The notes beneath the pieces were generated by a model that was not told where the DNA came from, did no database searches, and was given only the letters and a program-made list of their open reading frames with translations. A stretch of DNA of 50,298 nt. Source: Gemmatimonadota bacterium. GTDB lineage: Bacteria > Gemmatimonadota > Gemmatimonadetes > Gemmatimonadales > Gemmatimonadaceae. The position numbers were made by a program, and so were the translations under genes. The stretch is taken from positions 1 to 50,298 of the forward strand of contig JACREJ010000001.1 of assembly GCA_016218305.1 (NCBI GenBank). The letters are read 5' to 3'. Positions 48,007 to 48,143 of this stretch are shown here, one piece after another (position 1 is the first letter of the stretch; each line of letters begins with the position of its first letter).

Positions 48007-48038
48007 AAAACGGCCTCCTCCGTGGTGGGAGAAGGCCG
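48007..48038 (-). terminator. Intrinsic terminator in the met operon leader
   Basis: On minus, CGGCCTTCTCC (48028-48038) pairs with GGAGGAGGCCG (48011-48021) over 11 bp with one G-U pair, around a CACCAC loop, and TTTT follows. The first arm overlaps a 14-base segment (48027-48040) that can instead pair with the leader coding sequence at 48098-48111. The two structures exclude each other, as in amino-acid attenuators. Confidence 0.8.
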
Positions 48039-48062
48039 GGTGAGTTGCGCGACTCGTGTCGC

Positions 48063-48143
48063 TTAGCTCGCTGGTGGCGCCTTGACGCGCGCCTCCGCCC
48101 GGCCGGCTCCCATGTAGGGAAGGCGGCACATGCACATGAGCAT
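48063..48143 (-). CDS. Met/Cys leader peptide of metYX-hom
   Basis: A 26-codon frame starts with ATG at 48143 and reads MLMCMCRLPY, then MGAGRAEARV, then KAPPAS and TAA. Four of the first eleven codons are Met and two are Cys, fitting an operon that makes methionine by direct sulfhydrylation. The codons for residues 6-10 overlap a pairing region (48117-48126). The segment 48098-48111, starting at codon 11, is the antiterminator arm. No good Shine-Dalgarno sequence precedes the ATG, so translation may be leaderless or weak. This is inferred from architecture, not from homology. Confidence 0.68.
   Translation of the reverse strand: MLMCMCRLPYMGAGRAEARVKAPPAS
48098..48111 (-). promoter_or_regulatory. 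Antiterminator arm within the leader peptide frame
   Basis: On minus the segment GGGAGCCGGCCGGG can pair with CCCGGCCTTCTCCC at 48027-48040: five pairs, a 2x2 internal mismatch, then seven pairs. That blocks the terminator. The same segment can also pair upstream with TCCC and CCGCC in 48117-48126, which a ribosome stalled on the Met/Cys codons would cover. Confidence 0.65.

Follow-up and report, generated by a model that had tools for sequence, protein, structure and literature searches.

What controls the metY-metX-hom operon of this Gemmatimonadota bacterium? Accounts of methionine control usually feature SAM riboswitches, repressors of the MetJ/MetR type, or T boxes. The window, by which we mean the whole 50,298-nt stretch of contig JACREJ010000001.1 that was analyzed, was originally predicted to carry a Met/Cys-rich leader peptide acting as a ribosome-mediated attenuator in front of metY. 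Based on the computational evidence presented below, we consider it highly probable that a two-gate leader, responding first to SAM and then to the charging of Met- and Cys-tRNA, controls the operon. Attenuation by the Met/Cys codons is very likely, the arrangement of the two gates in series is likely, and separate sensing of Met and Cys by the leader is a plausible candidate function. The operon comprises three genes, each overlapping the next by 4 bases:

46584..47930, minus strand: metY, O-acetylhomoserine sulfhydrylase (TIGR01326, 656 bits, cut-off 495).
45580..46587, minus strand: metX, homoserine O-acetyltransferase-like (best NCBIfam match TIGR01392, 285 bits, cut-off of 500 not reached).
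44552..45583, minus strand: hom, homoserine dehydrogenase without an ACT domain (Pfam PF00742 and PF03447 only).

The NCBIfam name of MetY, assigned above cut-off, is O-acetylhomoserine aminocarboxypropyltransferase/cysteine synthase, and the protein is 90% identical to its counterpart in L031 (Gemmatimonadetes bacterium) and 88% identical to that in L032 (Gemmatimonas sp.). That Hom lacks its ACT domain, a point made in the original prediction, was borne out by the Pfam result. No CysE was found above cut-off in any of 41 genomes, the best host match reaching 36.7 bits and those of seven congeners 155-164 bits. The short frame in front of metY has two parts of interest:

48063..48167, minus strand: leader peptide frame, with a probable start at 48167 (48143 in the original prediction) and its stop codon at 48065-48063.
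48126..48143, minus strand: Met/Cys codon cluster ATG CTC ATG TGC ATG TGC (MLMCMC).

On the minus strand, the ATG at 48143 opens a frame for MLMCMCRLPYMGAGRAEARVKAPPAS that ends with the stop at 48063, and the 26 codons beginning M-L-M-C-M-C are present as originally described. The frame is also open upstream of 48143, and the corresponding frames of congeners L002, L003, and L004 comprise 34, 34, and 36 codons, respectively, with starts (picked by eye) that line up with window position 48167. This alignment moves the likely beginning of the leader away from 48143; the start is probably 48167, giving a 34-codon frame for the predicted peptide MPHSPRTLMLMCMCRLPYMGAGRAEARVKAPPAS. No Shine-Dalgarno sequence was seen by eye before 48167 or 48143. 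Five Met/Cys codons in six, as found in the upstream region of the window, were matched by none of 5000 dinucleotide shuffles of the same region.

Downstream of the cluster, the leader contains the segments of two competing folds:

48117..48126, minus strand: region 1, which can sequester region 2 in a short hairpin, TTCCC-TACAT-GGGAG (sequence; formed in part in the no-ribosome fold).
48098..48111, minus strand: region 2, the antiterminator half within the leader frame (complementarity, duplex test, folds).
48027..48040, minus strand: region 3, which forms the first terminator arm and can alternatively pair with region 2 (terminator scan, complementarity, duplex test, folds).
48007..48038, minus strand: intrinsic terminator 3:4 (48038-48011) with UUUU (48010-48007) (scan; covariation in congeners).

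The terminator consists of 11 pairs (8 G-C) and a loop of 6, followed by TTTT, and 12 of 14 positions pair between 48111-48098 (GGGAGCCGGCCGGG) and 48040-48027 (CCCGGCCTTCTCCC); both features were located exactly where the original prediction had placed them. The sequestration of region 2 that it had also proposed is possible in the letters of the window, where 48126-48117 (CCGCCTTCCC) is able to pair with the start of 48111-48098. The 2:3 duplex of the window has an energy of -28.7 kcal/mol compared to a shuffle mean of -19.3 (p=0.007). All 11 terminator pairs are kept in 4/4 congeners, with three pairs altered on both sides. When folding was computed with a ribosome placed at the last Cys codon, the terminator was largely replaced by the antiterminator (P(3:4)=0.07, P(2:3)=0.78), and a ribosome at Met 48143 gave P(3:4)=0.27 and P(2:3)=0.61. 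With the ribosome at the stop codon P(3:4) was 0.98, and with no ribosome 0.99. For a ribosome at C48134, region 2 holds region 3 (0.84) before region 4 has been made, and the full-leader equilibrium prefers the terminator (P(3:4)=0.64), so that at this codon the model depends on the order of folding.

The cluster recurs upstream of metY in relatives. Each of 99 distinct upstream regions (excluding L016-L030, which are partial or paralogous matches, L054-L110, 19 duplicates, and 2 short regions) was scored by the Met/Cys count of its richest six-codon stretch without a stop, from -300 to -20 relative to metY. At least four Met/Cys codons in six were found in 42/99 regions, compared to 0.72 expected from dinucleotide shuffles, and at least five in 16/99, compared to 0.0 expected; the window reaches five. 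By group, labeled according to where each locus came from, clusters of at least four occurred in 16/50 Gemmatimonadota regions, 23/29 regions of the class of Acidobacteriota record L046, 3/18 of the phylum of L053, and neither of two others. Conservation in relatives, proposed at the outset as a check, was found in part: the frame, the stop before the terminator, and the overall antiterminator pairing recur in other genera and phyla, but 34 of the 50 Gemmatimonadota regions have no cluster at the threshold of four. The Met/Cys leader was rejected as a general feature of metY, since only two of the 60 loci L051-L110 reached the threshold, one of them being L053 itself; this control is narrow because Prochlorococcus and its close kin make up about 50 of these loci.

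Of the 23 clusters in the Acidobacteriota class, 15 lie in a frame that starts 7-11 nt after a promoter-like -10 box (L044-L046, L048, L050, L149, L151, L153-L156, L159, L160, L170, and L174), a position found for none of the clusters in the other two frames. The leader peptides of this class may be encoded on leaderless transcripts, and the spacing indirectly supports translation of the frame there. On a smaller scale, the host genome contains a single copy of the motif ATGTGYATGTGY, located at the window leader, and a single copy of a reversed control pattern, so the one occurrence alone shows no enrichment. As an exact-motif marker of further leaders in the nearest genomes it was rejected, with 13 genomes yielding four matches and the reversed pattern being about equally common. 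The four were the window leader, the leader of congener G004, and two chance-like sites, one within a rhodanese-like frame (G008) and one ahead of a kinase-like frame (G038), these identities being judged by eye from translations. In G004, a 4-kb locus with no metY (L228) has a leader containing MSMPMPMCMCRVPMRG together with a SAM-II core before metX.

Geometry and pairing were tested in 36 of 45 loci considered, namely 29 of the 31 loci of the first pairing test (L159 and L179 left out) and seven placed by hand. Of the latter, L003, L014, L133, and L134 have terminators missed by the finder, and L007, L011, and L135 fall below the threshold of 4, their leaders having been seen by eye; L137, L157, L158, L160, L162, L164, and L165 went untested for lack of a finder-called terminator. 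A distance of 17-56 nt separates the leader stop codon from the downstream terminator arm in all 36 loci, and the frame ends 24-69 nt past the last Met/Cys codon. A stop 15-60 nt before the arm combined with at least 20 nt after the cluster was observed for the leader frame in 36/36 loci, compared to 6/36 and 15/36 for the other two frames. We rejected an accidental frame on the basis of this frame control and of the shuffles (42/99 vs. 0.72). In the duplexes of the 36 loci the antiterminator segment starts 0-23 nt after the last Met/Cys codon, which would be close to where a stalled ribosome leaves the RNA free.

With region 3 taken as arm plus loop, the 2:3 pairing of the 36 loci, three of which (L045, L046, and L048) are near-identical, had a mean z of -1.65 against shuffles that keep base composition only (p<0.05 in 18, p>0.3 in 9), and foreign arms outdid the locus's own arm on average 21% of the time. 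This stronger result was obtained after extending region 3 into the loop and changing the locus set; the first test, with the arm lacking its loop letters, gave for 31 loci a mean z of -0.51, z<-1.64 in 8, and a swap rank of 0.44. Because that first version was weak and related loci are not independent, we weigh the pairing as supporting rather than decisive. Alignments show that it shifts register between groups. Compensatory changes, which the original prediction had proposed to look for in both pairings, are evident as covariation of the terminator in the four congeners, while the 2:3 pairing beats shuffles overall, with p>0.3 in nine loci. Taken together, the cluster beyond shuffles, the stop-before-terminator geometry, and the overall 2:3 pairing recur at metY and support the interpretation as a ribosome-mediated attenuator.

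Farther upstream, the window holds a second set of elements:

48210..48244, minus strand: terminator-like hairpin CCCGCGG..CCGCGGG (hairpin 48244-48221) with a U-rich tail (sequence).
48239..48309, minus strand: SAM-II (SAM_alpha) riboswitch aptamer (RF00521 in Rfam; 30.8 bits against a gathering score of 36; E 4.1e-5 with 531 bases searched).
48323..48351, minus strand: candidate promoter TTGACG-17-TAGCCT (by eye; similar boxes in the same place in L002-L004).

The aptamer match covers model positions 1-79 of 79 and scores below the Rfam cut-off (30.8 vs. 36 bits), which is why a whole-window Rfam search at the curated cut-off returned nothing. Within 47900-48430 no Rfam family besides RF00521 was found at E<=1, the attenuator segment being without a match. 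We read the element as a probable SAM-II riboswitch overlooked by the original prediction, and binding of SAM is predicted from this match. Congeners L002 and L003 gave similar scores (32.4 and 29.9 bits), and SAM-II was above cut-off in L111 (42.8 bits), L117 (37.1 bits), and L039 (44.8 bits), of which L111 and L117 possess the Met/Cys leader as well. Two further loci, L011 and L049, appeared SAM-II-like by eye, were not confirmed by Rfam, and are not counted as tandems. SAM-I was not detected in the host genome (91.7% complete) at E<=0.001.

The hairpin at 48210-48244 is absent from the terminator scan list because the scan permits loops of at most 8. The aptamer loop GCCGCG (48289-48284) has its complement, CGCGGC (48242-48237), at the first arm of this hairpin, and in 30/30 pattern-parsed SAM-II sites the six loop letters are complementary to a segment no more than 60 nt downstream. 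These sites are related and fall into only two types, GCCGCG with CGCGGC (6) and GCCGCC with GGCGGC (24), the complement of the other type being found in 0/30; in L006, L008, and L125, which belong to the 24, the exact complement is more distant (46-51 nt downstream). The complementarity suggests that SAM-II in this order uses an expression platform based on simple loop capture, and the hairpin is probably the platform of the first gate. The consensus promoter scan called no promoter at 48323-48351, where the -10 box matches at 3/6 positions. As seen by eye in four congeners, both gates lie downstream of the candidate promoter, an arrangement that would place them on one transcript. The original suggestion of the leader as a potential main control point is weakened by a SAM-II element with its own terminator-like hairpin in front of the leader; control is probably shared. 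The stretch separating the SAM-II hairpin from the start of the leader contains C/U-rich near-repeats (CTCTGTTGTTT; 48178-48209, minus strand), which are also present in L002 and L003.

We propose that the two gates would operate as follows. With SAM bound, the loop would be held in the aptamer fold, the hairpin 48244-48221 would form, and transcription would stop; without SAM, the loop would pair with the first arm of the hairpin and RNA polymerase would pass. At the second gate, a ribosome-mediated attenuator, a ribosome would translate the leader from about 48167. When charged Met-tRNA and Cys-tRNA are plentiful, it would cross the cluster, continue through region 2, and reach the stop at 48063, leaving the terminator 48038-48011 free to form. 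If either charged tRNA is scarce, the ribosome would stall on the cluster with region 1 covered, allowing 2:3 to pair and block the terminator. Full transcription of the operon would require low SAM together with low Met/Cys-tRNA charging.

It is possible, if rather unlikely, that the attenuator works with a single amino acid, Met or Cys, as its signal and that the codons for the other are incidental. E. coli trpL and hisL, with one main signal each, offer precedent for such a leader, but thrL and ilvL have two or three signals, both Met and Cys codons are present in 40/42 clusters (101 Met and 86 Cys in total), and NCBIfam files MetY as a sulfhydrylase/cysteine synthase. In the available part of its description, the metL leader of S. 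lividans is filed under methionine despite its Cys codons (PMC8079986), as a single signal would have it.

A sole regulatory role for SAM-II, with the second terminator constitutive or left over and the Met/Cys frame accidental, seems to us very improbable. SAM-II is near-universal in the order (236/250 genomes at E<=0.01, 211 of them above cut-off), and a strict pattern found it in 25/50 Gemmatimonadota metY regions with the cluster in just four of these (L001-L004), so that SAM-II without the leader is the commoner arrangement; the metX regions L231, L232, L233, and L241 also have a pattern-parsed SAM-II-like core and no cluster. All of this would fit SAM-II acting alone, but the cluster is far beyond chance (42/99 vs. 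0.72), occurs in 23/29 Acidobacteriota-class regions, where the pattern found no SAM-II, and keeps a fixed geometry before the terminator.

Comparison of the leader in six pairs of four sequences gave codon-position differences of 52/57/50, with 16 synonymous and 91 non-synonymous codon differences. Outside the Met/Cys positions the peptide residues are, as far as these alignments go, not conserved and under no visible coding constraint, a freedom that is tolerated in an attenuator leader but usually not in a functional peptide. That the frame instead encodes a functional sulfur-rich or metal-binding micropeptide, the terminator merely ending its transcript, is scarcely credible, since this Met/Cys frame does stay open in distant taxa but changes freely outside the cluster, varies in the order and number of its Met/Cys codons between leaders, and contains, in region 2, a segment complementary to the terminator.

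A two-gate leader of SAM sensor and charging sensor has a possible counterpart in the phylum of L053. There, L177 and L183 possess a Met-rich frame (MHMEMMML and MIIMMMKNIMCCC, respectively; 4/6 each) followed by SAM-I above the Rfam cut-off, and L180 has a weaker Met-rich frame (3/6), likewise with SAM-I above cut-off. In all three, a terminator-like hairpin was seen by eye between the frame and SAM-I, the order being the reverse of that in the window. The series of SAM sensor and putative Met-supply leader is found in two phyla with different parts, Gemmatimonadota combining SAM-II with the Met/Cys leader and the phylum of L053 combining a Met-rich leader with SAM-I.

Several other elements were observed near metY in relatives. 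L179 has two tandem Met/Cys-rich frames upstream of metY with a terminator-like hairpin after each (CCCTTCAGG/CCTGAAGGG and CCCTTCAG/CTGAAGGG; by eye), and a TPP riboswitch (72.6 bits) lies at 1953-2054 on the minus strand of L053, near its metY locus. A second conserved RNA was found 5′ of SAM-II, about 290-345 nt before metY, in 16 Gemmatimonas-type loci (L006, L033-L041, L043, L114, L118, L120, L124, and L128) and was not seen in the window. It consists of two hairpins and a terminator-like hairpin, with an invariant 10-pair complement between a loop and a downstream segment (GAUUUGACGG with CCGUCUAAGUC, one bulge), and 8/41 of its pairs are altered on both sides in 15 aligned rows (L114 left out). 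In L033, L035, and L039 it had no Rfam match at E<=0.1. This RNA is a candidate for a new riboswitch in tandem with SAM-II.

If the two-gate reading is correct, the Met/Cys leader before metY in three phyla would be an additional sensor of sulfur amino-acid supply, one coupled to translation and unmatched by Rfam. In series with SAM-II, or as a Met-rich leader with SAM-I elsewhere, it would constitute a two-input gate for end product and tRNA charging. The chances appear to us evenly balanced that the locus represents a module with three signals in series (SAM and the charging of two sulfur amino-acid tRNAs), that such series arose more than once, and that the bare Met/Cys attenuator is an old and widespread control of metY in phyla whose methionine control has received little study. 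Whether the operon senses SAM, Met, and Cys separately becomes a directly testable question.

Among known systems, the second gate resembles the trp/his-type ribosome-mediated attenuators of E. coli (trpL, hisL, thrL, and ilvL), with which it shares a short frame holding the regulatory codons, competition between the 2:3 and 3:4 pairings (with a possible 1:2 pairing in the window), a U-run terminator, and a cognate biosynthetic operon. It differs from them in its combination of Met and Cys codons, its metY operon, its position behind a SAM riboswitch, and a region 2 that lies within the frame, well before the stop. Ribosome-mediated attenuation is the known part of the arrangement; what is new is the clustering of Met with Cys codons, metY as the target, and the placement in tandem with a riboswitch. 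SAM-II (RF00521), which the upstream element matches over its full length at a score below cut-off, accounts for only half of it. Our searches of open-licence PubMed Central papers found no report of attenuation by Met/Cys codons, either at metY or in Gemmatimonadota.

The following comparisons refer to the portions of the cited papers that were available. The metL leader of S. lividans, MSTTSDRTPATEATTTPGARCMCRRMCAF (RCMCRRMC), upstream of metNIQ, shares a Met/Cys-cluster leader peptide, a leaderless transcript, and a methionine gene target, and differs in that it serves a transporter operon, has no typical Rho-independent terminator according to its authors, and is reported there without an accompanying SAM riboswitch (PMC8079986). 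Cys codons in short upstream frames are also found in the polycysteine short ORFs of M. smegmatis (Canestrari 2020, as cited in PMC9031893), the leaders of Mycobacterium cys operons (PMC1262725), and uORFC-8-2 of Rhodobacterales cysS, which shares the terminator (PMC8632094); all are described as Cys leaders and belong to other genes. A beta-proteobacterial metXZ element is a terminator-antiterminator RNA, the main text of its report not using the word peptide (PMC4239095), and the methionine-responsive 5′UTR of Xanthomonas is thought to act mainly on translation (PMC6230763). An interplay of riboswitch and uORF has been described for M. tuberculosis metE (PMC11260477), and a set of eight uORF candidates includes two that are described, ilvB and the Streptococcus fthC motif, with initiator-tRNA and methionine levels suggested for the latter (PMC11109978). 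A parallel to the whole is provided by the SAM-I/T box-Met tandems with their NOT A AND B logic, in which a SAM-sensing OFF switch is likewise combined in series with an element that senses Met-tRNA charging (PMC9481103); in the window, by contrast, charging is predicted to be sensed by translation of a leader peptide and SAM by a SAM-II riboswitch.
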